Shown: positions 28,691 to 62,391 of the stretch, piece after piece
Numbering within the stretch: position 1 is the first letter of the stretch
Layout of the letters: each line of letters opens with the position of its first letter
Notes under the pieces: generated by a model
What the model saw: the letters and a program-made list of their open reading frames with translations, nothing else
What the model was told of the DNA's origin: nothing
Databases searched by the model: none
Translations under genes and position numbers: made by a program
Assembly: GCF_947387555.1 (NCBI RefSeq)
Contig: NZ_CANDNZ010000008.1
Span: 1 to 64,000 of the forward strand
Source: Thalassomonas sp. RHCl1
GTDB lineage: Bacteria > Pseudomonadota > Gammaproteobacteria > Enterobacterales > Alteromonadaceae
Length of the DNA stretch: 64,000 bases
Reading direction: 5' to 3'

Positions 28691-28725
28691 AAAAAGCGAA
28701 GCCAGTAACTGGCTTCGCTTTTTTT
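28691..28725. terminator. Intrinsic terminator of the RND operon
   Basis: A 10-bp perfect stem (GCGAAGCCAG 28696-28705, CTGGCTTCGC 28709-28718) with loop TAA and T-run 28719-28725. It also has an A-run on its left and could serve both directions. A repeat element begins within the T-run. Confidence 0.93.
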
Positions 28726-28905
28726 ATACCTGGAAGTATTTCGGTTTATATGTTCCGGACATAAACCAAGTACTGACATCCTGTCAGCAATCCTGCGGCT
28801 TCATGGATGAAGAGGAGCAGGGTTTATACCTGGAAGTATTTCGGTTTATATGTTCCTGACACAAACCAGGTACTGACATCCTGTCAGCAATCCTGCGGCT
28901 TTATT
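28721..28905 (+). repeat. Post-terminator structured repeat, two tandem copies (100-bp period)
   Basis: Two head-to-tail copies begin at 28723 and 28823 (both TTTATACCTGGAAGTATTT), the second truncated. The first copy folds into hairpins: an ATAC/GTAT stem around a TGGA-type loop; 28743-28767 (GGTTTA/TAAACC arms); 28773-28787 (CTGACA-TCC-TGTCAG); and 28792-28821 (CCTGC, GG, CTTCA, loop TGGA, TGAAG, AGGA, GCAGG). The same structure with different stem bases recurs at 55156 and 62086. It starts in the T-run of the upstream terminator and is oriented like the upstream gene. Confidence 0.85.
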
Positions 28906-28925
28906 CGTCTTTTATTAACGGATAC

Positions 28926-29765
28926 TTACTTAACGCCAAGTTCTCTTAAGCGCTCAAGCAAATAGCTTTCACTGGTATATTTGTCTGACAACACCACTTC
29001 ACTGCGCGGGTGTAAAAATAGCGGCAAAGAGATACGAGATTTATCGCTGCCTTTACCGCTCGGGTTAATAACCCTGTGGGTAGTCGACGGGAAATAACCG
29101 CCGGAGGCTTCCTGCAACATATCACCGATATTGATGATCAGGTTACCGAAATCCGAAGGTACGTCTAACCAGTTACCGTCTTGTTGCTGCACCTGTAAGC
29201 CCGGTTCATTGGCGGCAGGTAATACCGTCAGCAGGTTGATGTCTTCATGAGCGGCGGCGCGGATTGCACCCGGCTCTTCGTCACCGGTTAACGGCGGATA
29301 GTGTAATACTCTAAGCAGGGTATTAGGCGTATCCTTGATCATATTCGACAGGTTTTCGGAATATTTGGCGGCGACATCCGCCGGGCTGTGTTCCTGTACC
29401 CAGTCCAGCAGTTCGGCGGCCAGATCAGAGGCCATTTTATAATAGTTAAGGATTTCATCCTTAAGCTCCGCCGGGATACGTCCCCAGGGATAAACGTGGT
29501 AATACTCTTTAATGTCTTTTTTGGTATGGCCTTTCGCGGTTTCAGAAACCTCAGGACCAAAATAACCGTCCTGTTTTTCAGGATCGAAGGCTAAATCATG
29601 CTTTTGTTCTGAATTAAAAAAGGTTTGCCAGTTTTTATAAATGGACTCAACCATTTCTTGTTTAATGGGGTGGTTGATTAATACGCCAAAGCCAGTGTTC
29701 CGTAAACTTTCTACGAAACGCTCGGGGGCGTCTTTTGCTGTATAATCTACAACTTGAACTTGCAT
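28926..29765 (-). CDS. Isopenicillin N synthase-like 2-oxoglutarate/Fe(II) oxygenase
   Basis: A 279-aa non-heme iron oxygenase of the IPNS/2OG-Fe(II) family. The start MQVQVVDYTA at 29765 has GGAG ten bases upstream. An alternative start four codons earlier is less likely. An N-terminal DIOX_N-like segment (residues 1-110) precedes the jelly roll with the iron ligands in AAHEDINLL (His-X-Asp) and the distal His in STTHRVINP, and the 2-oxoglutarate Arg in SRISLPLFLHP. The substrate is not predictable. It is a single gene, so no biosynthetic cluster is suggested. Confidence 0.9.
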   Translation of the reverse strand: MQVQVVDYTAKDAPERFVESLRNTGFGVLINHPIKQEMVESIYKNWQTFFNSEQKHDLAFDPEKQDGYFGPEVSETAKGHTKKDIKEYYHVYPWGRIPAELKDEILNYYKMASDLAAELLDWVQEHSPADVAAKYSENLSNMIKDTPNTLLRVLHYPPLTGDEEPGAIRAAAHEDINLLTVLPAANEPGLQVQQQDGNWLDVPSDFGNLIINIGDMLQEASGGYFPSTTHRVINPSGKGSDKSRISLPLFLHPRSEVVLSDKYTSESYLLERLRELGVK

Positions 29766-29964
29766 AATTTTCTCCAAAGGGCATTCAAGCCTACAATTTT
29801 ACGCTATTTCACGGTTTGAGCAAAGTATGAACTGTCACTACTGTCAGGAAACATGAAAAACTAAGCCAAAAGTTGATTACGATCAATAACAAGGAAATGC
29901 TATCTAGTTTAGCCTCTGCTGGCTATAATGCGGCATTACCGGTCGCAGTTAAGAGAGAAATAAA

Positions 29965-30291
29965 ATGAAAAAATCTGTTTTTGTCGTCCCCAGTCTGTTA
30001 TTGATTTTGTCTGGCTGTGCCACACAGGAAAAAGCTTGTGAAGATATCACCTTGGTTTCGGAGCAAATTCAGCAATGTCAGGCACTGCAGCGCCAGATCG
30101 CCAAAGCAAAAGGCAAGCCTATTTTACGCACGGAATTAGAGCGTCGCTATCAGCAAGACTGTGTTGATATTCGTTATTATCGCGATGAGCATCAAATCGC
30201 TATTTGCGGCAATAAAGAGAAAATCAAAAAAGCCCGGACAGAGCCTGAGGTGCAGGAAGAGCTGAAATCAGCCGGCAGTGCTGACCGCTAA
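29965..30291 (+). CDS. Small lipoprotein of unknown function (108 aa)
   Basis: The signal peptide ends in a lipobox (ILSGC, Cys18), so the product is probably an outer-membrane lipoprotein. The mature part is charged and helical with three more cysteines (near residues 23, 36 and 64-80), which could form disulfides in the periplasm. No family is recognised. A good AGAGAG-type ribosome site precedes the ATG. The last 25 codons, the stop and the terminator are the source of the 107-bp tandem array that follows. Confidence 0.85.
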   Translation: MKKSVFVVPSLLLILSGCATQEKACEDITLVSEQIQQCQALQRQIAKAKGKPILRTELERRYQQDCVDIRYYRDEHQIAICGNKEKIKKARTEPEVQEELKSAGSADR

Positions 30292-30801
30292 GCGATTGCC
30301 GCCAGCTTTTTTTCAAGTAATAAGAGAAAAGCAAAAAAGCCCGGACAGAGCCTGAGGTGCAGGAAGAGCTGAAATCAGCCGGCAGTGCTGACCGCTAAGC
30401 GATTGCCGCCAGCTTTTTTTCAAGTAATAAGAGAAAAGCAAAAAAGCCCGGACAGAGCCTGAGGTGCAGGAAGAGCTGAAATCAGCCGGCAGTGCTGACC
30501 GCTAAGCGATTGCCGCCAGCTTTTTTTCAAGTAATAAGAGAAAAGCAAAAAAGCCCGGACAGAGCCTGAGGTGCAGGAAGAGCTGAAATCAGCCGGCAGT
30601 GCTGACCGCTAAGCGATTGCCGCCAGCTTTTTTTCAAGTAATAAGAGAAAAGCAAAAAAGCCCGGACAGAGCCTGAGGTGCAGGAAGAGCTGAAATCAGC
30701 CGGCAGTGCTGACCGCTAAGCGATTGCCGCCGGCTTTTTTCAGGTAATAAGAGAAAAGCAAAAAAGCCCGGACAGAGCCCGAGGTGCAGGAAGAGCTGAA
30801 A
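30212..30801 (+). repeat. 107-bp tandem array copying a gene 3' end plus terminator
   Basis: The string AGCCCGGACAGAGCC begins at 30231, 30338, 30445, 30552, 30659 and 30765, giving periods of 107, 107, 107, 107 and 106. The first copy is inside the lipoprotein gene. The last is partial and ends near 30801. Each unit carries the final codons of the gene, its stop and the terminator hairpin with T-run. Because 107 is not a multiple of three the copies cannot extend the protein. Near-identical copies imply recent expansion, probably between short AATAA-GAGAAAA direct repeats at unit borders. Confidence 0.95.
30273..30313 (+). terminator. Terminator of the lipoprotein gene (first of an array)
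   Basis: CGGCAGT (30273-30279) pairs with ATTGCCG (30295-30301) with one G-T wobble, followed a few bases later by seven T (30307-30313). The hairpin overlaps the stop codon. It is repeated in each 107-bp unit. Confidence 0.6.
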
Positions 30802-31095
30802 TAAGCTGTTTCCTTGAATTTTTCTCCCGGGATGCTTCCCGGGAGCTCGAACTCAGTCACCTGACTGATGTTATTTGTTGCAACGGCGTCGGGCAAATAA
30901 CTAAAGTGATGGCAGTAGTCTTTTGTTTACACTTTGACCATCAAATCTCTCCTTTAAATCTTCCCTTATATCAAGAGTTAAAAAATTGTTGCCGTTTCTG
31001 TCTATGAATTCACTAGAAATTTACTTCAGAACAGGTCATTATCGGGTGTTAATTGATAATTTTAGCTAGATAATTGCAGTAGATTCGTTTAAATA
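30802..31095. other. Intergenic region with three dyads
   Basis: It contains a 9-bp perfect stem (CTCCCGGGA 30824-30832 with 30837-30845), a 7-bp dyad (TCAGTCA/TGACTGA, 30853-30868) and a TTATTTG/CAAATAA pair near 30871-30900. None ends in a T-run. No gene is seen. The promoter of the GGDEF-EAL gene should be near its right end. Confidence 0.5.
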
Positions 31096-33693
31096 ATGGG
31101 AAATTCAGCCAAAATCACAGGAACTTCCGCCGATCCTGAAAGTTTGCTTGCTCAGGAGCTGGCAGAGACGCGCCAGCAATTCCTGGATTTACAGGCACAT
31201 CATATGGCGCTGTTTAAACTGACGCAATTATCCCACGATTGTGCCGACTTAAGCGTGTTTTTCCAGGAAGTGCATCAAACCATTGCCTCGTTAATGACGG
31301 CAAAGAACTTTTATATTGTCATGTACGACGAAACCCTGGCGACACTGGAATTTGTTTATCATATCGATGAGAAAGACGAAATCCCCGAGGGGACTATCGC
31401 CTATGAAGAGTTAGCCGGCTCATTGACCAATTATGTGATTGAAACCGCCGAACCTTTGCTGGCGACCCCGGAATTGATCACTGAGCTGACCAACAACCGG
31501 AAAATTGCCCGTATCGGCACTTTGGGCCTGGACTGGCTCGGGGTACCGCTGATTAATGACGGTATCGTGATCGGCGTTATGGTGGTACAGAGCTACAGTG
31601 AAAGCACCCGTTACCAGGAGCGCGATTTAGACCTGCTGACCTTTGCCGCCCAGCACATAGTAGTGGCCATGACCCGGCTGCAGGACAGGGAGCGGCTGCA
31701 AAATGCCGTCAGCGCCCGTACCCGGGAATTAATGCAGCAGATCCGCGAGCGGGAAAAATCGGAATTATTGCAGGAATCCCTGTTCCGCATTTCTGAGCTC
31801 ACCAATGACGTTTCCCTGGATATCGAGCAGTTTTATGCCCAGGTGCATAATATTGTCGGCCAGCTGATCAATGCGGTGAATTTCTTTATTGCCAAATACG
31901 ACAAGGAAAATGAAACCTTAGAGTTTGTTTATTATCTCGATCAAAATTCCCGCGATCTGGAAAAAGATTTCCGGCCGAGAAAATTGGCCAATCATTACAC
32001 CGAGCTGGTGATCCGCCGCGGTGAAACCGTGTTGCTGACCCGTGATGATATGATGGCGCTTCATCAAAGCGGCGAAACCAGGAAACCTCAGGATGAAACC
32101 AATTCCTGGCTTGGCGTGCCCCTGTTCAGCTTTGGTGAAATCCTCGGGGTGATGGTGATCCAAAGTTACCAGCAAAATACCGAGTATACCGAGCAGGATG
32201 CCGAATTGCTCAATTTCGTTTCCCAGCACGTATCAACCGCGATCAAGCGCCGTGAGGCGGCGGATTACGAACGCCGGGCCCATGAATTATTGGAGCAGCA
32301 GGTCAAGCTTAGAACCGTGGCGCTTGAAGATGAAATCAAGCAAAGGAAGCAGGCGGAAGAAAGACTCAAGCATACCGCCTCCCACGACAGTTTAACCGGC
32401 CTGCCCAACCGCAGCGTATTTATCGATTTGCTCAACCATGCCATCGCCTGCCGCAAACGGGATCGGCAGGTGAAATTTGCCGTGTTATTTCTGGACTTGG
32501 ACAGGTTTAAAGTAGTCAACGACAGCCTGGGGCATCATGCCGGGGATATATTGCTGAAAATGATCGCCAAAGAGCTCAGGGACATTGTCCGGGAAGTGGA
32601 TACCGTTGCCCGTCTCGGCGGAGATGAGTTTGTGATCTTGATTGAAAACCTGATCAACGAACAGGAAGCCCATGAAATTTCCAGCAGGATCACACGCTTA
32701 TTGGATCGGCCTTTTACCATAGAAGGGCAGCCGGTATTTATCGGCACCAGTATCGGCCTATTGTTCAGTGACGACAGATATGACAGCGCCGATACCATGC
32801 TGCGCGATGCCGATACCGCCATGTATCACGCCAAAGACAACGGTAAGGGCCGCTATGAAGTGTTCGACGCCAGCATGCATTCCAAGGTGCAAAATGCCCT
32901 GTCGCTGGAAGTGGATATCCGCGAGGCCATAGGCGCACAGGAGTTTGTCCCCTATTTCCAGCCGATTATGAATCTCTCTTCCGGAAAAATCGCCGGTTTC
33001 GAAGCCCTGGCCCGCTGGAACAGTGGTAAACGCGGCTTTGTCTATCCGGATGAATTTATCCCGCTGGCGGAAGATACCAACCTGGTGATGGCAATCGATT
33101 TACAGATCATGGAAAAAGCCTGCTTGCAGCTGAAACAGTGGCAAAGCAAATTAAAAGACAAGAATCTGTACGTTAGTTGTAACCTGTTCTGCAATCATTT
33201 TTTCAACAAGAACTTGGCGCAGGATATCAGGGCAATATTAGACCGGGTCGGTCTATCACCCCAGCAGCTCAGGGTGGAAATCACCGAGCGCGCTTTGCTG
33301 GAAAACAGCGATTTGGTGCTGGCGAATATGCAGTCGCTGAAACAGCTGGGGGTGAAAATCCTGCTGGATGATTTCGGCACCGGCTATTCCAGTCTCAGCT
33401 ACCTGCACAGGTTCCCTATCGACGTATTAAAAATTGATAAATCCTTTATCAACAATGTCGATGAAGACGCCAACCACAGGGCCATTATCAAAACCATTAT
33501 TGACCTGGCCACCAGCTTAAAAATGGCGACCGTGGGGGAAGGCATAGAGAATGTAGTGGATGCCCTGCTGTTGCAGCAAATGGATTGCATGTACGGACAA
33601 GGTTATTATTTTGCCCGGCCGATGGCGGCGGATGCGGTGGAAGCCTTTATGTATTCGGCGGCCAACCCGGCGCAGACCATGGCATTAAACTGA
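31096..33693 (+). CDS. GAF-GAF-GGDEF-EAL cyclic-di-GMP enzyme
   Basis: An 865-aa cytoplasmic protein with two tandem GAF domains (residues about 45-190 and 230-385), each preceded or followed by a coiled coil, then GGDEF and EAL. The cyclase site is intact (ARLGGDEFVIL, 508-512) with an inhibitory RxxD site (REVD, 499-502). The phosphodiesterase site is also intact (GFEALARW, Glu636; DDFGTGYSS about 755). So both synthesis and breakdown of c-di-GMP are possible, with the GAF pair sensing a small ligand. No membrane segment is visible. It is a single gene. Its ATG has no strong ribosome site. Confidence 0.94.
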   Translation: MGNSAKITGTSADPESLLAQELAETRQQFLDLQAHHMALFKLTQLSHDCADLSVFFQEVHQTIASLMTAKNFYIVMYDETLATLEFVYHIDEKDEIPEGTIAYEELAGSLTNYVIETAEPLLATPELITELTNNRKIARIGTLGLDWLGVPLINDGIVIGVMVVQSYSESTRYQERDLDLLTFAAQHIVVAMTRLQDRERLQNAVSARTRELMQQIREREKSELLQESLFRISELTNDVSLDIEQFYAQVHNIVGQLINAVNFFIAKYDKENETLEFVYYLDQNSRDLEKDFRPRKLANHYTELVIRRGETVLLTRDDMMALHQSGETRKPQDETNSWLGVPLFSFGEILGVMVIQSYQQNTEYTEQDAELLNFVSQHVSTAIKRREAADYERRAHELLEQQVKLRTVALEDEIKQRKQAEERLKHTASHDSLTGLPNRSVFIDLLNHAIACRKRDRQVKFAVLFLDLDRFKVVNDSLGHHAGDILLKMIAKELRDIVREVDTVARLGGDEFVILIENLINEQEAHEISSRITRLLDRPFTIEGQPVFIGTSIGLLFSDDRYDSADTMLRDADTAMYHAKDNGKGRYEVFDASMHSKVQNALSLEVDIREAIGAQEFVPYFQPIMNLSSGKIAGFEALARWNSGKRGFVYPDEFIPLAEDTNLVMAIDLQIMEKACLQLKQWQSKLKDKNLYVSCNLFCNHFFNKNLAQDIRAILDRVGLSPQQLRVEITERALLENSDLVLANMQSLKQLGVKILLDDFGTGYSSLSYLHRFPIDVLKIDKSFINNVDEDANHRAIIKTIIDLATSLKMATVGEGIENVVDALLLQQMDCMYGQGYYFARPMAADAVEAFMYSAANPAQTMALN

Positions 33694-33727
33694 GCTTAAC
33701 GGACGCAGCCCGGGCCGGGGTTGCTAT

Positions 33728-33799
33728 AACGGCCTTTGGCCGTTGTGAAAAATAACCTTGCTGTACATCAGCTCTCTCCCCGTAGGTACGGGGAGAGAG
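33728..33799. other. Two perfect hairpins between convergent genes
   Basis: AACGGCC-TTT-GGCCGTT (33728-33744) and a 13-bp perfect stem CTCTCTCCCCGTA/TACGGGGAGAGAG with loop GG (33772-33799). Neither is followed by a T-run. They lie between the convergent GGDEF-EAL and barrel genes and may act as Rho-dependent 3' ends or be remnants of repeats. Confidence 0.6.
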
Positions 33800-33809
33800 G
33801 ATAAAAAAC

Positions 33810-35021
33810 TTAATAATACCACTCCAGCGTGAATCCCAAATGATCATCATTGCTCAGATAATACCAAGCATCTTGTTTGTCGCTGCTTTGAAACACCCTG
33901 ACATCCAGGCTGGCCTTGAAACTCTCGCCTATCCGGCGGCTGGCTTCGACAATAAAGCTGGTGGCGCTATGCTGCAAATCTGTGCCTAAGCCCAGCAAAA
34001 CTTCAGTGCTCTGCACATCATTAAGAGCAAGCCGGCTGCCGAAAAACAGATCACTTTGCATGGCTGCGCCAGGAGAGTCAGTGTCGCCTTCGCCGCGGGA
34101 ATCCCAGGCATATTCCAGCAGAAAGCCGAGATCGACTGCGCTGTCAAAAACTCCCACCCGGGTATATTCAAAACCGGCCTGGGTTGCCCAGAAATCTTCG
34201 GCACTTGTACTGCGGTAAATCGCTTCGAACTTCCAGAGAAAATCGCCTTTGGTTGCCTGTATATCCAGTCCCAGCTGTTCCATCTGACGGTAATATTGCC
34301 TTAACACCTGCTTTTCGCCATCCTGGCTAGCCGTTAACTCAGGTTCGCGGTTCGTACCGTGAAACCAGTATGCCCCGACATCGAAATCGCCTATGGTGTG
34401 GGACCAGCGTGTTGCCAGATCTAGGTGGTTTTCTCCGGCGCCGGACTCATAGTCGACATTATTTTTGTCTACCGGCAGCGGGCCGCGCAGACGCCCCTTT
34501 TCGCCGGAGAATGTTCTTTCCCTGAAACCGGGCAGGAGGTACATGTCAACTATGCCCCAATCCCTGACCAGAGACAGGTTCACCATCTGCTGGCCGAGTT
34601 TTTGTTCGCCGTCAAAGCTGTCGACGCCATCCGTCTGGTTGAGCACATCCACCAGGTGCTGAAATTCGGTTACTCCCCAGTACTCCTTGCGTATGCCCGC
34701 TTTTAACTCCCAGTCTTTGCCAACGTGGATATAAGACAATTCACGGATATCCAGGTGGGAGCGCTGGTTATCCTCACTGTCGTAGCGGTAAAACGGCTGG
34801 AATGTCAGGCTGTCATCACCCGAGTTCCATTGCCAGTACAGCTCCGGGCTGATAAAAAATGACTGCTGGGTGTGAGCGAACTGTTTTGGGTACTGCCCCT
34901 GATCAACAAAATAGCGTTGTTCGGTGCCGACTTTACCGGAATATTCGAATTGGGCAGCTATTGCACCAGGTGACAGCAGCATGGCAACGGCTGCTGTTTT
35001 CGTTAATTTACTAACAGACAT
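33810..35021 (-). CDS. Outer-membrane beta-barrel protein of an exporter cluster
   Basis: A 403-aa protein with signal peptide (cleavage after AIAA, residue 23) and alternating beta strands to a C-terminal Tyr (LEWYY), which marks an outer-membrane barrel. No channel family is recognised beyond similarity to the barrel partners of MMPL/LolA-like clusters. It is the last gene of a set with the LolA-like protein (4 bases upstream) and the MMPL pump, so all three probably act together to move a hydrophobic or lipid-like compound to the surface. Confidence 0.8.
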   Translation of the reverse strand: MSVSKLTKTAAVAMLLSPGAIAAQFEYSGKVGTEQRYFVDQGQYPKQFAHTQQSFFISPELYWQWNSGDDSLTFQPFYRYDSEDNQRSHLDIRELSYIHVGKDWELKAGIRKEYWGVTEFQHLVDVLNQTDGVDSFDGEQKLGQQMVNLSLVRDWGIVDMYLLPGFRERTFSGEKGRLRGPLPVDKNNVDYESGAGENHLDLATRWSHTIGDFDVGAYWFHGTNREPELTASQDGEKQVLRQYYRQMEQLGLDIQATKGDFLWKFEAIYRSTSAEDFWATQAGFEYTRVGVFDSAVDLGFLLEYAWDSRGEGDTDSPGAAMQSDLFFGSRLALNDVQSTEVLLGLGTDLQHSATSFIVEASRRIGESFKASLDVRVFQSSDKQDAWYYLSNDDHLGFTLEWYY

Positions 35022-35025
35022 AGGC

Positions 35026-35823: not shown

Positions 35824-35849
35824 GATTTTCTCCAAATGCTGTGTACTTG

Positions 35850-35880
35850 ATTGCCGGTGAAAATAATGCTCACCGGCAAT
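35850..35880 (-). other. Intercistronic hairpin in the exporter operon
   Basis: An 11-bp perfect stem (ATTGCCGGTGA/TCACCGGCAAT) with a 9-base loop sits between the pump stop and the LolA-like gene. No T-run follows in the direction of transcription. It may protect or separate the upstream mRNA part and so set the ratio of pump to carrier. Confidence 0.65.
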
Positions 35881-35888
35881 GTGTTCTG

Positions 35889-38228: not shown

Positions 38229-38260
38229 GTTTCCTCCAAAGACTCTGGGTCTTATAATTT

Positions 38261-38280
38261 AACTTACATGTAAGTAAGTT
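38261..38280 (-). promoter_or_regulatory. TetR operator copy 1
   Basis: Contains the 14-bp perfect palindrome ACTTACATGTAAGT (38262-38275), extended by AAGTT. It is the copy nearest to the pump gene (33 bp upstream of its ATG). The extended string ACTTACATGTAAGTAAGTT is identical in copies 2 and 3. Confidence 0.85.
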
Positions 38281-38349
38281 TTGTTTTTTAAAAAAAACCG
38301 CTTTGGGTTTGTTATTGCACTCTTTACTTTATTCAAAGTTATCAAGCAT

Positions 38350-38368
38350 ACTTACATGTAAGTAAGTT
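38350..38368 (-). promoter_or_regulatory. TetR operator copy 2
   Basis: Same 19-bp sequence as copy 1 (palindrome 38350-38363), 88 bp away. Confidence 0.85.
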
Positions 38369-38430
38369 GGTTCGTTAAAAAAATATCCAGGCTGTTGGTC
38401 TGTTTATAACTGTTTGTTATTTTTAAACTC

Positions 38431-38449
38431 ACTTACATGTAAGTAAGTT
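38431..38449 (-). promoter_or_regulatory. TetR operator copy 3
   Basis: Same 19-bp sequence as copy 1 (palindrome 38431-38444), 81 bp from copy 2 and 22 bp past the tetR stop. Confidence 0.85.
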
Positions 38450-38470
38450 TTTAGGGCGGAAAAAAGCTAA

Positions 38471-39043
38471 TTATTTAAGGCTTTCAGCCCATTCGGCCAA
38501 TAAACCGCTCAGTAACTTTTTCGCCTCGCGAACCAGCAATTGGTGCTGTCCGCAGCCGTTTACGCCTATCATTAACACATGGCAACGTGTCGCTTCCCGG
38601 TCAACGTCTATGTCGTTGCGGATTTCACCACAATCAACGGCATCCTGGATAATGCCTGTTACTATATTGTGTATTTTGTTGAAGCTGTCCCGTGACAAGA
38701 TGGCAATGGACTCGGGAATCTCGGGATCCGAGACCAGGTTGATGCAGGAATCTACTTTTGCATCATCACTGTTATCCGGCTGCATCCAGATCATTTCTTC
38801 AACCACAGGCCATAAGGCAAAAAAGTTACCTTTATAGACGGAGCGCAGCCGCTCGAATTCCCTGAGATAAAAGCCGACATAGCGACGAGTCACCTCAATA
38901 GCAAGGGTCTCCTTGTTTTTGAAATGATAATGCAGGTTAGCCCGGGTAGTATTGAGCTCTTTCGCTATGGTGGCGAAATTAAGCTTGCTGTAACCACCAC
39001 GCATTAACTGCTGCTCGGCTATTTCTAATATGGCATCTCTCAT
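38471..39043 (-). CDS. TetR-family transcriptional regulator
   Basis: A 190-aa TetR protein from ATG 39043; a TTG three codons upstream is less likely. The N-terminal helix-turn-helix is clear: FATIAKELNTTRANLHYHFKNKETLA (residues about 25-50, quoted only in part here: NTTRANLHYHFKNKE). The all-helical C-terminal domain has cysteines near 70 and 145 and would bind a ligand. The gene sits upstream of the MMPL exporter operon on the same strand. One 19-bp motif recurs three times before the exporter and once before this gene, so it very probably represses both. The inducer is unknown. Confidence 0.92.
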   Translation of the reverse strand: MRDAILEIAEQQLMRGGYSKLNFATIAKELNTTRANLHYHFKNKETLAIEVTRRYVGFYLREFERLRSVYKGNFFALWPVVEEMIWMQPDNSDDAKVDSCINLVSDPEIPESIAILSRDSFNKIHNIVTGIIQDAVDCGEIRNDIDVDREATRCHVLMIGVNGCGQHQLLVREAKKLLSGLLAEWAESLK

Positions 39044-39050
39044 GGCGGAC

Positions 39051-39070
39051 AAGTTTACTTACATGTATGT
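39051..39070 (-). promoter_or_regulatory. TetR operator copy 4, autoregulatory
   Basis: ACTTACATGTATGT (39057-39070) has one change from the palindrome. On the opposite strand it reads ACATACATGTAAGTAAACTT, keeping the extra AAGTAA half of the other copies. It lies 13 bp upstream of the chosen tetR ATG, so it should cover the tetR promoter or start region. Confidence 0.75.
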
Positions 39071-39170
39071 CAGTATTCAAGGGGTTTTTATTTAACCGCT
39101 GCTGTTGTTTAACATCAGGTGATTCGTTTGTGGCCGTGAACTGTGGTTGACTCTTCTACCGGGAGGGAGC

Positions 39171-49554: not shown

Positions 49555-49566
49555 TTAAAACAGGGA

Positions 49567-53389: not shown

Positions 53390-53443
53390 AGGTTTTTGGT
53401 TAATGCTATCTTTTCAAGATAACTGTTTGAAAAATAACTGTAA

Positions 53444-53845
<402 letters not shown>

Positions 53846-53858
53846 CCAAGGGGATAGA

Positions 53859-55103: not shown

Positions 55104-55132
55104 CCTGTTTTGCAGTAAAAGTTAGCAAGGAC

Positions 55133-55162
55133 AAAAGCCAGCACGTGTTGCTGGCTTTTTTA
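55133..55162 (+). terminator. Intrinsic terminator of glnK-amtB
   Basis: GCCAGCA (55137-55143) and TGCTGGC (55149-55155) around CGTGT, then a T-run. Confidence 0.93.
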
Positions 55163-55258
55163 TACATGGATGTATTTCAGCTTGTATGCTCCCGGCACAA
55201 GCTAAGTCCTTACCTCCTGTAAGTAATCCTGCAATCATACGGATATGAAGGAGCAGGG
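55156..55258 (+). repeat. Post-terminator structured repeat
   Basis: A full copy of the family: ATACA-TGGA-TGTAT right after the terminator T-run, AGCTTGT/ACAAGCT arms (55179-55203), CTTAC-CTCCT-GTAAG (55209-55223), and CCTGC-AA-TCATA-CGGA-TATGA-AGGA-GCAGG (55228-55257). Compared with 28721 the stems carry paired changes (TCATA/TATGA against CTTCA/TGAAG; AGCTTGT/ACAAGCT against GGTTTA/TAAACC) and loops are kept. Orientation follows amtB. Confidence 0.85.
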
Positions 55259-55406
55259 AGCTCACTTTTGTTGATTTATGACCATAATCGAAAATAATCA
55301 CCTGTTTTAGCTACTGATTTACTGCCAAACAATAGCTTTTATGTAGAATTAGCGGTATAAAATGTTGCAGCTTATTACATAAATAAATATCACCATAGGA
55401 AATACA

Positions 55407-56333
55407 ATGGCGAGAGAACAATTCGGAGTTTGTGCCGAGCCAAGTTTACATGGCTCATATTTATTTTTTAATGCCGTTGATGAGCAAAATACTTATCTCA
55501 GACAGGCGTTGTCGCGCTTGCCGGTATTATTTGAAAAATATGCGGATCGTTTTTCTGAGTCTAATCTCACCGGGGTGATTGCCATCGGGGCCAATTACTG
55601 GGATGAGTTTAATCCCGACAGCAGGCCAAAATCTTTAGCGCCTTTTCCTGCCATGGAATGCGAGGATCGTATTGCCCCGGCGCAGAGCATAGATCTTTAT
55701 ATTGAGGTTCGCAGCGATCGCGCCGACGTTAATCATATTGTCAGCTCTAAAGTTTGCGATTTACTGGCAGAAAGTGTAGAGCTGGTTGAGGAAGTGCATG
55801 CTTTCAGATTTCTCGACGGCCGGGATCTCACCGGTTTTGTTGACGGCACCGAAAATCCGCAAGGTTTCCATCGCCGTAAAGTTGCCCTGGTAACCGATGA
55901 AAGCGACGGTGATTTTGCCGGTGGCAGTTATTTACACGTACAGCGCTATCGTCATAATCTGCATTTATGGCAATCTCTGAAAGTGAAAGAGCAGGAAGAT
56001 GTTTTTGGTCGCACTAAGGTGGATAACATAGAGTATCCCGGCGAACAGAAAAGTCCAGGGGCGCATACTAAACGCACCAACCTCAAAGATGAACAGGGCA
56101 ATAGTATCGAAATATTAAGACAAAGCATGCCCTACGGCGATATGAAAATGCAGGGCTTAATGTTTGTTTCTTACTGCCATTCTCCCGAGCCTTTCGAACT
56201 GATGTTAAAAAGTATGATTTATGGCGATGGCTCAGGGCATTCAGATCATATGTTAAAATATACCCAGGCAGAAACCGGCGCCGCCTTTTTTGCGCCGAGC
56301 TTAAATTTCCTGGAGAGTCTGGCGCAGGAATAA
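55407..56333 (+). CDS. DyP-type peroxidase (YfeX-like)
   Basis: A 308-aa dye-decolorising heme peroxidase. The family motif GXXDG is in RDLTGFVDGTENPQGF. The proximal His is probably in SPGAHTKRTN. The length and lack of a signal peptide fit cytoplasmic YfeX-type enzymes, which reduce peroxides. It is a single gene with a terminator and repeats after it. Confidence 0.93.
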   Translation: MAREQFGVCAEPSLHGSYLFFNAVDEQNTYLRQALSRLPVLFEKYADRFSESNLTGVIAIGANYWDEFNPDSRPKSLAPFPAMECEDRIAPAQSIDLYIEVRSDRADVNHIVSSKVCDLLAESVELVEEVHAFRFLDGRDLTGFVDGTENPQGFHRRKVALVTDESDGDFAGGSYLHVQRYRHNLHLWQSLKVKEQEDVFGRTKVDNIEYPGEQKSPGAHTKRTNLKDEQGNSIEILRQSMPYGDMKMQGLMFVSYCHSPEPFELMLKSMIYGDGSGHSDHMLKYTQAETGAAFFAPSLNFLESLAQE

Positions 56334-56344
56334 CGTCTGAATCG

Positions 56345-56373
56345 AAAAGGGCCGAAATTATTCGGCCTTTTTT
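56345..56373 (+). terminator. Intrinsic terminator of the DyP gene
   Basis: GGCCGAA (56350-56356) and TTCGGCC (56361-56367) around ATTA, then six T. Confidence 0.93.
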
Positions 56374-56530
56374 ATGCTCAGGATGAGCTGTATGCCATGA
56401 TCACAGGGATGTGAAAGAATGGCGATGCTCAGGATGAGCTGTCAATATCCTGTTCCCGATAAATATTCAGTACCTGCATCCTTGCAGGCAATACCATGAT
56501 CACACGGATGCCAAGGAATGGTGATACTGG
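56374..56530 (+). repeat. Post-terminator structured repeat, diverged
   Basis: It contains the shared string GCTCAGGATGAGC (GCTCA-GGA-TGAGC hairpin) twice (56376 and 56427), a full bulged hairpin GCCAT-GA-TCACA-GGGA-TGTGA-AAGA-ATGGC (56394-56423), the CCTGCA-TCC-TTGCAGG hairpin (56473-56488), and a weaker ACCAT...ATGGT copy (56493-56522). It starts directly after the terminator T-run of the DyP gene. Confidence 0.75.
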
Positions 56531-56548
56531 TTTTCGCTGAGATAATAC

Positions 56549-57022
56549 TTAAGCGAGATTTTTAGAGAATAAGACTTCCAGTTTGCCGATTGTCTGTTTT
56601 ATCTGGCTGACATCTGTTGGTGCAATAAAGATAGTATCGTCACCGGCAATGGTGCCAAGTACTCCGTCGCTTTTGCTTAAGCTGTCCAGCAAGCGGGCGA
56701 TAAGTTGGGCTGCCCCTGGGCTGGTGCGGATAATGATCATCACATCGTTATGCTCAATATCGAGTACCAGTTGTTTTAGCGGGCTTTTTGCCGTTGGTAC
56801 GCCTAGCTCTGCCGGCAGGCAATAAACCATGTCCTGACGGGCGTTGCGGGTGCGGACTGCTCCGAATTTACTGAGCATGCGCGAGACCTTGGATTGACTG
56901 ATATTGTCAAAACCCTGGGCTTTGAGTGCATCGACTATGTCGCCCTGAGAGCCAAATTGTTCTTGCTTTAATAACTCTTTAAAGGCCTGTACCAGTGCTT
57001 CTTGCTTTTGTTGAACTGTCAT
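56549..57022 (-). CDS. argR: Arginine repressor ArgR
   Basis: A 157-aa ArgR: winged helix at the N-terminus ([20 protein letters not shown] and [14 protein letters not shown]) and the arginine-binding trimer domain with [18 protein letters not shown] and [15 protein letters not shown]. It represses arginine synthesis genes when arginine is bound. It is divergent from mdh, an arrangement common in gammaproteobacteria. Confidence 0.97.
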
Positions 57023-57220
57023 AATGTGCTGCTATTTTGTTATCTTCACTACTAATGATATGGAATCTTGGGCTATCTAACGCGATAATTTGTTACCCAA
57101 GTATTATACGGTATCCTGCACAAGGTTAATAATATTTGTTTTTTTGCCCCTTATGCTATATCTTTTGGCGGCAGAAAATTTTAAGTAATTACTCAAATAC
57201 TCAAATTCCGGAGACATTTC

Positions 57221-58156
57221 ATGAAAGTTGCTGTTTTAGGCGCAGCTGGCGGTATCGGCCAGGCGTTATCTTTGTTACTCAAGACTCAGTTACCTGCAGG
57301 CTCTGAGTTATCTCTTTATGACGTTGCACCTGTTGTACCCGGTGTTGCTGTTGATTTATCACACATCCCAACGGCAGTAAAAGTTGAAGGCTTTGGTGCC
57401 GATGATTTAGCACCTGCCTTAGCCGGTGCCGATATCGTATTGATCCCTGCCGGTATGCCGCGTAAGCCTGGTATGGACCGTGCCGATCTTTTTGCTGTAA
57501 ATGCCGGTATCATCAAAACTTTGGCTGAAGGTATTGTTGCTAACTGTCCTAAAGCCCTGGTTGGTATTATTACTAACCCGGTAAACGGCACTGTACCAAT
57601 TGTTGCTGAAGTGTTCAAAAAAGCAGGAACTTATGACGCCGGCCGTGTATTCGGTGTGACTACCTTAGACGTAATTCGCTCAGAAGCTTTTATTGCCGAA
57701 TTAAAAGGTCTGGACGTTGCTGATGTTAAAATTCCAGTGATCGGTGGTCACTCAGGTACAACTATTTTACCTCTGCTTTCTCAGGTTGAAGGCGTAACTT
57801 TCTCTGATGAAGAAGTTGCTGCATTAACACCGCGTATCCAAAATGCCGGTACCGAAGTGGTTAACGCTAAAGCGGGTGGCGGTTCTGCTACTTTATCTAT
57901 GGGCGCTGCAGCAGCACGCTTTTGTATGTCTTTGGTTAAAGGCCTGCAAGGTGAAGAAGTTGTTGATTATGCCTATGTTGAAGGCGAAGGTGAAGAAGCC
58001 GCTTATTTTGCCCGTCCGGTACGTTTAGGCGTAAACGGTGTTGCTGAGATTTTATCTTACGGCGAGCTAAGTGCTTTTGAAGAAAAAGCCAAACAAGATA
58101 TGCTGGCCACTTTGAACAGCGATATTCAAGAAGGTATCGACTTCATTAATGGTTAA
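57221..58156 (+). CDS. mdh: Malate dehydrogenase
   Basis: A 311-aa NAD-dependent malate dehydrogenase of the TCA cycle. The Rossmann start is [16 protein letters not shown]. The Arg loop is [14 protein letters not shown]. The catalytic His is in [16 protein letters not shown]. It has CCGGAG ahead of the ATG, and a terminator follows. Codon use is strongly biased, as expected for a highly expressed gene. Confidence 0.98.
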
Positions 58157-58191
58157 TCGCTATTAATAAGTGAATGAACACCTGATATAAA

Positions 58192-58216
58192 AAAACCGCT
58201 TTTCAGCGGTTTTTTT
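58192..58216 (+). terminator. Intrinsic terminator of mdh
   Basis: AAAACCGCT (58192-58200) and AGCGGTTTT (58205-58213) around TTTC, with a T-run to 58216. Confidence 0.93.
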
Positions 58217-58290
58217 TATGCATGTAAGTATTTATATTGCGCTTCCTTACAAAGGAAAAGAGCAGGCCTTATACCTGGAAGCTTTCGTGG
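58210..58290 (+). repeat. Post-terminator repeat, degenerate copy
   Basis: It starts in the mdh terminator T-run with TTTATGCATGTAAGTATTT, a clear relative of the other copies' TTTATACATGGATGTATTT. It then has GAGCAGG and a second CTTATACCTGGAAGC start near 58269. The stems are mostly lost. Orientation follows mdh. It ends at the ispB stop. Confidence 0.55.
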
Positions 58291-58293
58291 TGC

Positions 58294-59265
58294 TTAGACG
58301 CTGCGGTTTGCTGCGATATGCGCCAGGGCGATTAACGCGTCTTTGTATTCAGACGGTTCCAATACAGCCAAGGCGTTTATGGCCTTGTCTGCTTCCTGCT
58401 CGGCTTTGTGCTGGGCATAGGTTAAGGCGCCGGTTTCCTGCATGGCGTTAAGAATTTCATCCAGGTTATCCATGCCGTTATTGAGCTCTATCGCTTCGCG
58501 GATCAATTGTTTTTGCGTCTCTGTGCCATTTTCCATGGCATAAATGAGCGGCAGGGTGGGTTTGCCTTCGGCGAGGTCATCACCGACGTTTTTGCCCATT
58601 TCCTTGGCATCGGCGGTATAGTCCATAATATCGTCCACCAGCTGGAAGGCGGTGCCTAAATGTTTACCGTAGTCGGTCATCGCCTTTTCGGTTTTTTCAT
58701 CTTTTCCTGCGATCACGGCGGCCAGTCTGGTGGCCGCTTCAAACAGCTTGGCGGTTTTGCAGTAAATGACTTCCATATAGCTGGTTTCTGTGGTGTCGGG
58801 GTCGTTGCAATTCATCAATTGCAGTACTTCACCTTCGGCAACGATATTGGTGGCGTCCGATAAAATTTCCATGATGCGCATGTTATTGAGTTTTACCATC
58901 ATCTGGAATGAACGGGTGTAGAGAAAATCCCCCACCAGTACGCTGGCGCTGTTGCCGAACATGGCATTGGCGGTTTCCCGTCCCCTGCGCATACTGGACT
59001 CATCCACCACGTCATCATGCAGCAAGGTGGCGGTATGGATAAACTCAATAATGGCAGCGACACTGGCATGATCCTGTCCCTGGTAATTGAGCGCCCGGGC
59101 GGCCAGTACCGTCAGCAGTGGCCGCATGCGTTTACCGCCCGCGTTAACAATATAGATACCCAGCTGGTTTATCAGTGCCACATCGGATTGTAACTGACCG
59201 TAAATCAGGTCGTTTACAACTGTCATATCGGTGCGCGCTAGCGCTTGTATATTATCAAGATCCAT
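58294..59265 (-). CDS. ispB: Octaprenyl diphosphate synthase
   Basis: IspB makes the C40 side chain of ubiquinone and menaquinone. With start ATG 59265 (MDLDNIQALARTDM, as in E. coli IspB) it is 323 aa, the E. coli length. An upstream TTG adds three residues and is rejected. The two aspartate motifs are LLHDDVVDESSMRRG and QLVDDIMDYTAD. It is divergent from rplU, the usual neighbour. Confidence 0.97.
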   Translation of the reverse strand: MDLDNIQALARTDMTVVNDLIYGQLQSDVALINQLGIYIVNAGGKRMRPLLTVLAARALNYQGQDHASVAAIIEFIHTATLLHDDVVDESSMRRGRETANAMFGNSASVLVGDFLYTRSFQMMVKLNNMRIMEILSDATNIVAEGEVLQLMNCNDPDTTETSYMEVIYCKTAKLFEAATRLAAVIAGKDEKTEKAMTDYGKHLGTAFQLVDDIMDYTADAKEMGKNVGDDLAEGKPTLPLIYAMENGTETQKQLIREAIELNNGMDNLDEILNAMQETGALTYAQHKAEQEADKAINALAVLEPSEYKDALIALAHIAANRSV

Positions 59266-59509
59266 AAAGCTCAATTAGGTACCCTAAGTCTCGTCCGCAT
59301 TATCAGTTTAATGGCCCCAGAGTTTACACTAAAATCAGCCGCAGAGAAGGTTTGTCTGGCCTTTGTCTGGTGTTTGTTTCATTACGCCAAGAAATATTAA
59401 TAAATGATCGTTTTATACTTGCCCTCATTAGGATCTTCGAGTAGAATTCGCGCCCTATATTTTTAAATTTATGCGTCACATTTGAAGGTTGGCGCAGTAC
59501 GGAGTAGCT

Positions 59510-59821
59510 ATGTACGCAGTATTCCAAAGTGGTGGTAAACAGCACCGCGTGACCGAAGGTCAAACTGTTCGTCTTGAAAAGCTAGAGCTTGAAGTCGGAT
59601 CGACTGTAGAATTCGATAACGTTTTAATGATCGCCAATGGCGAAGAAATCAATGTAGGCGCGCCTTACATTGCCGGTGGTAAAGTAGTAGCTGAAGTTGT
59701 TACTCAAGGCCGCGCTGATAAAGTTAAAATTGTTAAATTTAAACGTCGTAAGCATTCACGCAAGCAAGCGGGCCATCGTCAATGGTTCACTGAAGTGAAG
59801 ATTACTGGTATTAACGGCTAA
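59510..59821 (+). CDS. rplU: 50S ribosomal protein L21
   Basis: A 103-aa L21 starting [18 protein letters not shown] at ATG 59510, with CGGAG upstream. A longer frame starting seven codons earlier is rejected. The C-terminal [20 protein letters not shown] is typical of the family. It is 16 bases before rpmA. Confidence 0.98.
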
Positions 59822-59837
59822 TTAGGAGCGATTTGAT

Positions 59838-60095
59838 ATGGCACATAAGAAGGCTGCAGGTAGTACACGTAACGGTCGTGACTCAGAAAGTAAACGTCTT
59901 GGCGTTAAGCGTTTTGGCGGTGAAACAGTTTTAGCTGGTAACATCATTGTTCGTCAACGTGGTACTAAGTTCCACGCTGGTAACAACATGGGTATCGGTA
60001 AAGACCACACTTTATTCGCTTTAACTGACGGTAAAGTTCAGTTTGAAGTTAAAGGTCCTAAGAACCGCAAATTTGTAAGCATTGTTGCTGAATAA
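59838..60095 (+). CDS. rpmA: 50S ribosomal protein L27
   Basis: An 85-aa L27 with the usual start [20 protein letters not shown] and no N-terminal extension. The N-terminal tail reaches the peptidyl-transferase centre. It is cotranscribed with rplU and ends in a strong terminator before obgE. Confidence 0.98.
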
Positions 60096-60117
60096 TCTTA
60101 CATTTGAGTTCTAAAAG

Positions 60118-60144
60118 CCTCGCACTTCAGCGAGGTTTTTTTTT
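60118..60144 (+). terminator. Intrinsic terminator of rplU-rpmA
   Basis: CCTCGC (60118-60123) and GCGAGG (60130-60135) around ACTTCA, then nine T. Confidence 0.95.
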
Positions 60145-60164
60145 GCCTCAAGATAAAAGGCTGA

Positions 60165-61400
<1,236 letters not shown>

Positions 61401-61456
61401 GTTTTCTGTCTAAGCTCGGCTTGATATCCGCCTTAGCTTCAACTCGCTAAAGTATT

Positions 61457-61495
61457 AAAGCACTGGTTGTTACAGCCGGTGCTTTTTTGTTTTTA
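61457..61495 (+). terminator. Intrinsic terminator of obgE
   Basis: AAAGCACTGG (61457-61466) and CCGGTGCTTT (61476-61485) with one wobble, followed by a T-rich run. Confidence 0.85.
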
Positions 61496-61547
61496 ATTGT
61501 GGCAAAACCCTTTAAACTTGCTGCAAACTTGGTAAAACAGAAATTTT

Positions 61548-62039
61548 ATGACCCAACTCTCCCTGATCGTTGCTTGTGCGGATAACAATATTATCGGCAA
61601 AGATAACCAAATGCCCTGGCATTTGCCTGCCGACCTGGCGTATTTTAAAAAAACCACCTTAGGTAAACCCATTATCATGGGGCGAAAAACCTATGAGTCT
61701 ATCGGCCGGCCGCTACCCGGGCGGCAAAATATCGTGATTTCCCGTAATCCGGATTTCAGCGCCGAAGGGGTTGATGTGGTTACTTGCGTTGAACAGGCAT
61801 TGGCCTTAGCCGGAGATGTGGAGGAGATCATGGTGATCGGTGGCGGTGCTATTTATAGCCATTGTTTACCGGCAGCAACCCGCTTGTATGTGACCCATAT
61901 CAAGGCGACTATCGAAGGAGACACCCGCTTTCCGGATTTTGACGGTGAAAAAAACTGGGTGAAAACGGCGAGTGAATTACGCCCGGCGGATGAAAAAAAT
62001 GCCTATGATCTCGATTTTTGTGTTTACGAGCGCAAGTGA
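61548..62039 (+). CDS. folA: Dihydrofolate reductase
   Basis: A 163-aa FolA reducing dihydrofolate with NADPH. The start MTQLSLIVACADNNIIGKDN, the substrate-binding MPWHLPADLAYFKKTT (Asp27 equivalent) and the NADPH-binding GRKTYESIGRPLPGR and VIGGGAIY motifs are all present. With folE2 at 9.2 kb, two folate-pathway genes lie in this window but are not linked. Confidence 0.97.
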   Translation: MTQLSLIVACADNNIIGKDNQMPWHLPADLAYFKKTTLGKPIIMGRKTYESIGRPLPGRQNIVISRNPDFSAEGVDVVTCVEQALALAGDVEEIMVIGGGAIYSHCLPAATRLYVTHIKATIEGDTRFPDFDGEKNWVKTASELRPADEKNAYDLDFCVYERK

Positions 62040-62085
62040 TAGCTGACTTAAATCTTGTTGTAAACTGTTAAGATTTAGCTATAAC

Positions 62086-62391
62086 CCCTGCTGCTTCATG
62101 TCCCCATGAATGCAGGGGGATTTACAAGGAGGTAAGGACTTAGCTTGTGCCGGGAAGCAGACAAGCTGAAATACATCCATGCATAAACCCAGCTCCTGCT
62201 CATCCTGAGCTCGCTGGATAAATACATCCATGCATAAACCCAGCTCCTGCTCATCCTGAGCCCGCTGGATAAATACTTCCATGTATAAACCCAGCTCCTG
62301 CTCATCCTGAGCCCGCTGGATAAATACTTCCATGTATAACCCCAGCTCCTGCTCATCCTGAGCCCGCTGGATAAATACTTCCATGTATAAA
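62086..62391 (-). repeat. Post-terminator tandem array: 51-bp units plus one full repeat
   Basis: On the minus strand, directly after the chemoreceptor terminator, TATACATGGAAGTATTT-type starts recur every 51 bp (TCCAT on the plus strand at 62176, 62227, 62278, 62329 and 62380). Four units carry CCAGC-GG-GCTCA-GGA-TGAGC-AGGA-GCTGG. The array ends in a full copy of the long repeat, with CCCTGC-AT-TCATG-GGGA-CATGA-AGCA-GCAGGG at 62086-62117. The minus strand has at least 13 GGA motifs, many in predicted loops, and four CAGGATG strings. Because 51 is a multiple of three, a spurious minus-strand ORF runs through it. Confidence 0.88.

Follow-up and report, generated by a model that had tools for sequence, protein, structure and literature searches.

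Hairpin repeats behind transcription terminators of Thalassomonas sp. RHCl1 and relatives carry candidate CsrA/RsmA-type sites

Why does one kind of hairpin repeat stand directly behind the terminators of unrelated genes, and what might its RNA do? The question is raised by a 64,000-nucleotide stretch of the Thalassomonas sp. RHCl1 genome (NZ_CANDNZ010000008.1, positions 1 to 64,000; the window), in which a sequence-only reading had described related hairpins at five intrinsic terminators, likened them to CsrA/RsmA binding arrays and named a REP-like element mobilised by a RAYT transposase as the main alternative. We show here that this repeat family is real and larger than first described, with copies at all five sites and at least 76 units in the source genome (G000). 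All five sites had been located correctly; each repeat starts inside the T tract that follows a hairpin and shares the orientation of the gene before it. For the RND permease gene (25519-28677, named by NCBIfam), the terminator lies at 28690..28722 on the plus strand (inverted repeat GAAGCCAG/CTGGCTTC, then T7). Two plus-strand long units follow, the first (28723..28822) with the hairpin H1, an H2-H3 module and the hairpin H4 (CTTCA/TGAAG; 18.6 bits for H1 and 32 bits for H4 with the covariance model R1), the second (28823..28904, placed by sequence and R1) ending before H4. The ammonium transporter (amt) gene terminator (55132..55158, plus strand, AAAAGCCAGC...GCTGGCTTTT) is followed by a long unit at 55159..55258 on the same strand (R1 33.3 bits, E 3.2e-6). 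At the DyP peroxidase gene, the terminator (56346..56373, plus strand, GGCCGAAATTATTCGGCC then T6) precedes unit 1 (56374..56424, plus strand, ATGCTCAGGATGAGC ... TCACAGGGATGTGA; R1 30.9 bits, E 1.2e-5 on 56371-56424) and unit 2 (56425..56523, plus strand, placed by sequence and as repeat D19), which contains an inserted H2-H3 module. Site and stem pairing are as described earlier for DyP, but both units belong to a subfamily (S3) separate from the other window copies; the subfamily of unit 1 is also present at two terminators of the related genome G001. The malate dehydrogenase (mdh) gene terminator (58190..58214, plus strand, AAACCGCTTTTCAGCGGTTT then a T run) bears a decayed short unit (58215..58266, plus strand, R1 33 bits) and, by sequence, the remnant of a second one (58267..58284, plus strand); arrays stand at the mdh terminator in G001, G002 and G003 as well, a site group of four genomes. 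A further array lies on the minus strand behind a chemoreceptor gene (62438-63973, minus strand) and its terminator (62392..62417, AACCAGCTCCCGGGCTGGTTTT on the minus strand), with short units 1 to 4 at 62341..62391 (R1 69.8 bits, E 4.5e-15), 62290..62340 (62.8 bits), 62239..62289 (69.8 bits) and 62188..62238 (64.6 bits) and a distal, diverged unit 5 of the long type at 62086..62187 (21.1 bits on 62143-62187). In the whole window, a 19-nt core of the repeat occurs nine times at up to three mismatches, with 0.06 copies expected and none of 100 shuffles reaching nine. R1 gives 11 matches at E <= 0.012, every one at the five sites; two weaker matches elsewhere (E 0.06 and 0.49) were left out of this count.

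The short unit measures 51-52 nt and consists of two hairpins. H1, ATAC-ANGGAN-GTAT, lies directly 3' of the T tract and is the most conserved part of the unit; the earlier description had omitted it, while the bulged hairpin with stem B that it did describe is real. Stem B takes the forms that had been claimed, CTTCA/TGAAG at RND, TCATA/TATGA at amt, TCACA/TGTGA at DyP and GCTCA/TGAGC at the chemoreceptor gene, and the H1 stems likewise change jointly among copies (ATAC/GTAT, GTGC/GCAC, GTTCA/TGAAC, GCTCA/TGAGC). The AGGA linker that the copies were said to share is not conserved, with AGGA in 12 of 49 short units and any GGA in 19 of 49. Long units hold the additional two-hairpin module H2-H3, in whose loops the sense strand has TCC and only the opposite strand shows GGA. 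By eye, the position of this module varies, after H1 in this genus and within the H4 loop in the Shewanella locus L088, and the T's between units are almost constant in number, two or three. At its end on the opposite strand, the unit has an A-rich tail. Where adjacent units are identical, the predicted minimum-energy fold is one long duplex and not separate hairpins.

Pairing of the stems is maintained by compensating changes. Across 49 short units from many genomes (set A1), 92.8% of the cells of the whole unit are paired, with a covariation score of 0.453 vs 0.126 after shuffling. Three rows with a poor second-hairpin fit (L029, L073 at 4250 and L098) were dropped by hand. Because pairing in stem A had partly guided the choice of the 49, the fair test is stem B alone, which played no part in it. 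Here 85.6% of cells are paired vs 50.0% in shuffles, changes on both sides number 82 vs 29.6, and the score is 0.835 vs 0.193 shuffled and at most 0.236 slid, with none of 500 shuffles as high. This strong covariation bears out the earlier view that stem B keeps its pairing while its sequence changes.

The distribution of the family is patchy. G000 holds 50 near-matches to the core vs none for the reversed pattern. A search with R1, the covariance-model search of the genome and its relatives that had been proposed, recovers in addition to the units in G000 at least 75 in G001, 78 in G002, 97 in G003 and 10 in G004, all of these lower bounds with 150 candidates scored per genome. Among 118 relatives, 10 have a core match, five of them a single one, and in a sample of the class 5 of 369 genomes do so, namely G000, G004 and three with one one-mismatch match each. 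Rfam has no family for the repeat; the only gathering-level match in the window is a lysine riboswitch, and the best sub-threshold match at the chemoreceptor array, STnc370, lies over the terminator of the array. Carriage by phages or plasmids was rejected, as a 276-nt array query had no match in a phage or plasmid collection; one exact match in a viral contig falls in apparent coding sequence without a terminator. In the literature on repeats, terminators and CsrA, covered mostly where open access, no title or abstract opening that came up describes the family, nor did term searches of PMC12306157, PMC12889724, PMC11882849 and PMC4679880 show a passage on it.

Placement is anything but random. 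A hairpin with a T tract marks the start of 101 of 107 sites from five related genomes, vs 103 of 846 TTTAT control positions (12%) and 82 of 4280 random positions. Four window sites are among the 107, all accepted by this hairpin-plus-T test, the DyP site being outside the set. L130, L163 and L176, three of the six misses, are apparently interior units of arrays whose first units have diverged. In named contigs, 43 of 50 stretches start in the same way (control 4 of 19), and six of the seven misses are chance matches in non-gammaproteobacterial taxa. A consensus terminator scan called none of the five window terminators in the sense direction, probably because the stem was extended through A/T pairs, leaving too few T's. 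There is no orientation bias of the neighbouring gene, the next open frame at the 107 sites being convergent in 48 cases and tandem in 59. The RNA is expected to end before the arrays begin, and consensus scans found no promoter-like site within the window arrays and one upstream of the RND terminator.

Do the hairpins resemble CsrA sites? The CsrA/RsmE consensus, as given in PMC7652899, places GGA in a short hairpin's loop, which reads ANGGAN and is closed by a C-G pair; RUACARGGAUGU is the SELEX sequence. The repeat loops, C-ANGGAN-G or C-AGGAN-G, fit this description. H1 matches this consensus throughout A1 apart from one of the 49 rows, which differs at A6, the search pattern having selected for the match. 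The count for the second hairpin is unbiased, GGA not being part of its search pattern: H4 carries GGA in 99 of 117 short units, vs 1613 of 8264 (20%) in the control, a figure obtained without the choice by hand that had given 48 of 49. The full CA(N)GGANG is found in 78 of the 117, and 18 lack GGA, several through a module inserted there. Most copies have hence retained GGA, whose general loss would have spoken against the CsrA idea. Decayed first hairpins have 11 of 154 mismatches in GGA vs 27 expected by position count, and nine of the 11 lie at the second G, where shorter loops may cause them by misalignment. Core positions T2 and T5, with one mismatch each in the decayed first hairpins, are protected as well as GGA, which is not explained by a CsrA site alone. 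Selection on RNA, judged by G-U vs A-C mismatches at positions 1-4 of sense hairpins (26 vs 15), gave no clear outcome. CsrA genes are present throughout, one each in G000 to G003 and two in G004. G000 has three CsrB-like RNAs, and the other three G000 matches of the Rfam CsrB model (RF00018) are by eye repeat arrays (29.2, 27.8 and 22.7 bits; E 8.2e-6, 2.1e-5 and 7.6e-4), below the gathering threshold of 71; the window array scores 8.9 bits. CsrB homologues of the same genus have the same loops as the repeat, and CsrB2 of G000 and G002 includes ATAC-ACGGAA-GTAT, a 14-nt hairpin identical to H1 letter for letter. G004, which carries the repeat, has no CsrB match. Loop motif and hairpin structure thus support the repeat hairpins as candidate CsrA/RsmA-type sites. 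That read-through transcripts act as a CsrA sponge is unproven, because the arrays lie beyond the terminator and those in the window have no promoter-like site inside.

Orthologous terminators of sister species either have no unit or hold one of another subfamily, so that units turn over and look mobile. In G000, units stand at the rpsO and rpsQ terminators, at which no element was seen in G001 to G003, and one shared terminator has subfamily S1 in G000, S2 in G003 and S3 in G001. At 22 sites compared between G000 and G002, median identity falls from 0.94 in the upstream flank to 0.76 over the leading 52 nt of the element, for which the baseline between non-orthologous sites is 0.64. Within arrays, the unit nearest the terminator tends to look youngest: in 57 arrays the first unit is nearer the consensus than the last in 31, equal in 25 and farther in one, a recount under stricter mismatch limits than the earlier 48 vs 1 with 19 equal, in which weak matches were possibly noise.

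Several histories could be proposed for such a pattern. Old cis elements, inherited vertically and altered by point mutation, gene conversion and tandem slippage, with empty sites as losses, would account for the 30 of 59 site groups common to at least two genomes and for the further shared sites found on top. However, sister species hold different subfamilies at one terminator, and rpsO would need a loss in all three other genomes, of which G001 and G002 end in identical sequence there; we regard this history as unlikely. The earlier suggestion of a REP/BIME family moved by a RAYT (Y1 tyrosine transposase) holds in so far as the sites turn over like those of a mobile element, and short interspersed hairpins in tandem and mosaic layout are in line with it. 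Matches to the Y1 transposase model PF01797 number two in G001, five in G004 and one, broken by an in-frame stop, in G000, but G002 and G003 have none despite 36 and 49 core matches, and on inspection the A1 consensus is without the GTAG or CGTC tetranucleotide that defines REPs at one palindrome end (PMC3733652). General mobilisation by a RAYT/IS200-type enzyme was rejected on account of the two genomes without a Y1 match, and we consider this origin very improbable.

The stem-loop targets of group IIC introns include terminators, that is, a hairpin and then T's. Retro-insertion by the reverse transcriptase of a group II intron, or a related one, would let the A-rich tail of the opposite strand anneal to the T tract and prime cDNA. 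Such introns are described in PMC10190682 as targeting a DNA stem-loop, and the typA terminator, which bears the repeat in G000 and G002, is followed in G003 by a group II intron-like 5' end directly after TTTTTTTATG, with a maturase domain ~1.4 kb beyond. The near-constant number of T's between units is unlike variable A tails, though, and the maturase was rejected as general mobiliser since PF08388 has no match in G000 or G004, which makes this route improbable in our view. No mobility enzyme tracks the family, with no Y1 match in G002 or G003 and no maturase match in G000 or G004, and this runs counter to mobility. Finally, the repeats may be selfish, non-autonomous hairpin DNA used by a single-strand DNA or RT-based recombinase, with GGA as enzyme recognition, a coincidental likeness to CsrA sites and no role as RNA. 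Turnover at orthologous terminators, the mosaic H2-H3 module at differing positions, GGA on both strands of long units, window arrays without a promoter and conserved T2 and T5 beside the T tract would all suit this account, against which stand the fit of loop size, of the A that precedes NGGA and of the closing C-G pair to the CsrA consensus, and the same 14-nt hairpin in a CsrB homologue. We hold it to be a serious, if doubtful, possibility.

The reading to which we incline, with modest confidence, is that the repeats enter terminator T tracts and multiply in tandem, and that their read-through RNA serves as CsrA decoys. A transposition-like process able to recognise a hairpin with T's behind it would bring the units in, the target being the T tract of intrinsic terminators, often of housekeeping genes, and landing behind a terminator would spare coding DNA. 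Arrays would then expand by local duplication, since the units within one array share a site-specific stem B. Read-through RNA would display two hairpins of the C-ANGGAN-G type per short unit and might bind CsrA, so that each array may act as a small CsrB-like decoy tied to the read-through of its terminator. G000 already has dedicated CsrB RNAs, which counts against decoys, as do the lack of a CsrB match in the carrier G004, the position of the arrays past the expected RNA 3' end, the single long duplex predicted for identical neighbours, the opposite-strand GGA of H2 and H3, the 18 short units lacking GGA in H4 and the protection of T2 and T5. More speculatively, and here we remain doubtful, a mobile element bearing the hairpin of its host's CsrA system might home to terminators and act as an amplifiable CsrB scattered over the genome, with an output that depends on how far the terminators of host genes leak. 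A repeat behind gene stop signals in some gammaproteobacteria, with RNA predicted to fold into CsrA-type hairpins, joins two usually separate topics, how small mobile hairpin repeats choose their targets and how RNA decoys control CsrA. Should CsrA bind, the Csr network would take input from dozens of 3' ends in each genome, with array length as one of its fast-evolving settings. If it does not, strict homing to terminators without an enzyme found would point to a mobility mechanism yet to be identified.

Known systems share some of these properties. REP/BIME sequences with their RAYT are likewise short extragenic hairpin repeats, interspersed, tandem and mosaic, whereas the start of the repeat described here is fixed at terminator T tracts in a single orientation, without GTAG/CGTC and without a RAYT in G002 and G003. 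Group IIC introns also sit directly behind a hairpin and T tract, as the one example at the shared typA site illustrates, but the repeat units are 50-100 nt long, have no intron-like sequence or long reading frame, and occur in two carriers, G000 and G004, in which no maturase was found. Like MITEs, the repeat is small, non-coding, multi-copy and apparently non-autonomous; its hairpins, however, are internal with common loops, and no terminal inverted repeats (by eye) or target duplication were seen, the latter being of a kind that the T tract would mask. CsrB, CsrC and RsmZ (RF00018 and relatives) resemble it in their serial hairpins with GGA loops of the ANGGAN/AGGAN type. Yet these sRNAs are each a single gene with its own promoter and a terminator at the 3' end, while the repeat forms many dispersed tandem arrays after the terminators of other genes, with an added opposite-strand module and with the terminator upstream of the array.

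We show here that the tandem hairpin repeats adjoining terminators form a real family, present in several gammaproteobacterial lineages and strictly placed at terminators. Literature searched on repeats, terminators and CsrA gave no prior description of it. Read directly, the window contains the five terminator sites as the sequence-only reading described them, behind genes for an RND permease, an ammonium transporter, a DyP peroxidase, malate dehydrogenase and a chemoreceptor. The core TTTATAC(A/C)TGGA(A/T)GTATTT, which is the first hairpin (H1) plus flanking T's, occurs nine times in the window at up to three mismatches, versus 0.06 from shuffles, and 50 times at up to two in the whole 7.56-Mb source genome (G000), versus none with the reversed pattern; contig C8 of this genome begins with the window. 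Arrays seen in G000 have one to seven units; in the related genome G003, one array has 13 core copies and another 10, the tenth with four mismatches. The short unit of 51-52 nt consists of TTTATAC-ANGGAN-GTATTTAT, stem A, a linker, stem B, a loop and a second linker. Its H1 displays the hexaloop ANGGAN on a 4-bp stem, and stems A and B form the second hairpin, H4. Stem A varies by lineage; examples are CCTGC/GCAGG in G000 and Marinobacterium, CCCC/GGGG in several Shewanella, CCTCTC/GAGAGG or CCTCAC/GTGAGG in Thalassotalea and GCCGC/GCGGC in Woeseiaceae. Two further hairpins, H2 and H3, bring the long units to about 100 nt; the sense loops of these two are TTCC- and TCC-like, hence their GGA lies on the opposite strand. 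Further subfamilies follow the same plan (S2, TATATACAGGATGTATGGTATGCCGCG...; S3, ATGCTCAGGATGAGC..., which includes the DyP site; S4, TTAATACATGGATGTATGTATCCGG...). The window also has an array of another repeat, 107 nt long, in roughly five and a half tandem copies (30201-30806) that include several GGA triplets and a T tract behind GCCGCCAGC. At 38256-39077, four near-palindromes like ACTTACATGTAAGTAAGT flank both sides of a minus-strand 193-aa reading frame and look like a regulator operator, and a lysine riboswitch lies at 14921-15092 (103.3 bits).

Placement relative to terminators, scored by our own hairpin-plus-T-tract test, is not random, in agreement with the sequence-only reading: 101 of 107 listed sites in five genomes pass, versus 103/846 TTTAT positions and 82/4280 random positions in the same loci. 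These sites are a subset (27 core clusters of G000 plus 60 and 20 among the matches listed, without the DyP site), and three of the six failures appear to be interior units of arrays. A named-contig collection yielded 50 exact stretches. Shewanella, Thalassotalea, Marinobacterium and Woeseiaceae account for 37, and one is labelled only Proteobacteria; two (L094, L118) probably come from the same genome as the related G004. Here 43/50 pass versus 4/19 controls, and since the search pattern required T5, the hairpin alone is informative. Apart from L113, the misses are six apparent chance matches, in Butyrivibrio, Clostridium, Clostridia, Campylobacter, Bartonella and Anaerostipes. A consensus terminator scan of the window listed none of the five terminators in sense direction, we think because the stem is extended through flanking A/T pairs.

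Upstream flanks sort the 107 sites into 59 groups. Of these, 30 are common to at least two genomes, and in 47 the best upstream frame ends in a stop codon 40-70 nt ahead of the unit. Upstream genes were scanned at 20 groups, some picked by a recognised C-terminus, so that the list is no measure of enrichment. Fifteen were clearly named (ribosomal S9, L9, S15, S17 and L19, lysS, metK, typA, rpoH, yidC, fabB, fadA, flgE, dihydrolipoyl dehydrogenase and malate synthase), four gave weak or partial matches and one gave none. On the main contigs of G002 and G003, few of the listed sites fall in the interval from about 2.4 to 4.5 Mb, which may be the region of the replication terminus; the position of yidC suggests an origin near the contig end. 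In the window, a dihydrofolate reductase gene (61548-62039), probably the chromosomal folA, is convergent with the chemoreceptor array.

Pairing is kept while sequence changes, as the sequence-only reading had proposed. In an alignment of 49 short units (A1), 92.8% of stem cells are paired, both-side changes number 126 (shuffle mean 41.4) and the covariation score is 0.453 versus 0.126 shuffled and at most 0.135 for slid structures; 0/500 shuffles were as high on either measure. Shuffle counts, here and below, are not probabilities, since the rows are related to each other. The number of pairs showing a both-side change is unexceptional (matched by 52/500 shuffles). Two helices carry ascertainment: H1 served as the search pattern, and a script had picked the rows by looking for pairing in stem A. 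Stem B played no part in choosing the rows, and taken alone it has 85.6% of cells paired versus 50.0% shuffled, 82 both-side changes versus 29.6 and a score of 0.835 versus 0.193 (0/500 for each; slid structures at most 0.236); the pair-type count stands out less, with 14/500 shuffles reaching the value. H1 stems, too, differ jointly on both sides among copies found by covariance model.

The GGA of H4 was absent from every search pattern. It is present in 48/49 A1 rows, after three poorly fitting rows were dropped, and in 99 of all 117 distinct short units (H1 with up to three mismatches, then AT; one of 118 was excluded as a chance locus), versus 1613/8264 random 19-mers from the flanks; 78/117 read CA(N)GGANG. 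Several of the 18 units lacking it carry an inserted module. The linker AGGA, earlier taken as a shared feature, occurs in 12/49 A1 rows. In decayed H1 copies (1-4 mismatches), GGA holds 11 of 154 mismatches versus 27 expected by position count, and T2 and T5 of the core are likewise spared.

Mobility of the family is well supported as an outcome, its mechanism is not. Among 40 orthologous loci for 18 G000 sites, classed by eye, about 10 lack the element: rpsO and rpsQ in each of G001, G002 and G003, three more sites in G001 (yidC, the chemoreceptor and rplI) and, in G002, a weak match at 76% identity. At rpsO, the T tract of G000 contains a double unit of 150 nt, where G001 and G002 read CTCCTTTTTTATTGCCTG. 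Seven of the 40 carry a different subfamily and one a group II intron-like sequence instead; the rest hold the same family, decayed remnants or are not judgeable. Between G000 and G002 (medians of 22 sites), identity is 0.94 over the upstream 250 nt and 0.76 over the element's first 52 nt, a measure that mixes short and long units and stands at 0.64 for non-orthologous sites. The last unit of an array is farther from the consensus than the first in 31 of 57 (equal 25, nearer 1) at up to four mismatches, and in 19 of 45 (equal 24, nearer 2) at up to two, a pattern that would fit arrays growing at the end next to the terminator, or selection being stronger there. The sequence-only reading had offered mobilisation by a RAYT transposase as its alternative, but in a Y1 domain search the Y1 transposase does not track the carrier genomes, and neither does a group II maturase. 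At G003 typA (L209), a group II intron-like sequence lies directly behind the T tract, with a maturase domain about 1.4 kb further on; G000 and G002 have the repeat there.

Some results count against a role of the arrays as CsrA-type RNA. A consensus promoter scan found no promoter-like site inside the window arrays and one immediately before the RND terminator (28649-28678), with about one expected by chance over that stretch. The four short chemoreceptor units fold into a single extended duplex (-91 kcal/mol, z -9.4) without separate hairpins; co-transcriptional folding could differ. In a strand comparison at positions 1-4, sense hairpins have 26 G-U and 15 A-C combinations, opposite-strand hairpins 16 and 13.

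CsrA binding would be the best reading of the hairpins, judged by loop and stem sequence. PMC7652899 quotes the consensus RUACARGGAUGU, mostly six-nucleotide loops with at most four contiguous pairs, and ANGGAN loops in RsmE structures. H1 has all of these features, and copies with AUACAGGGAUGU agree with that consensus at every position; on motif and structure, the likeness to CsrA/RsmA sites in the sequence-only reading is supported. CsrA is encoded in the genomes. A search with the CsrB model found no CsrB-like RNA in G004 and three in G000, at C4:155532 (69 bits), C3:401421 (64) and C4:438858 (30), none of which reaches the gathering score of 71; by eye, its other three matches in that genome are repeat arrays. 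The third RNA (L252, C4:438858-439127) is diverged, and its own terminator is followed by an apparent decayed long unit of the family. Like the family hairpins, the CsrB-like RNAs of G000 carry many C-AGGAN-G or ANGGAN loops, and CsrB2 of G000 and G002 includes ATAC-ACGGAA-GTAT, shared with the family H1.
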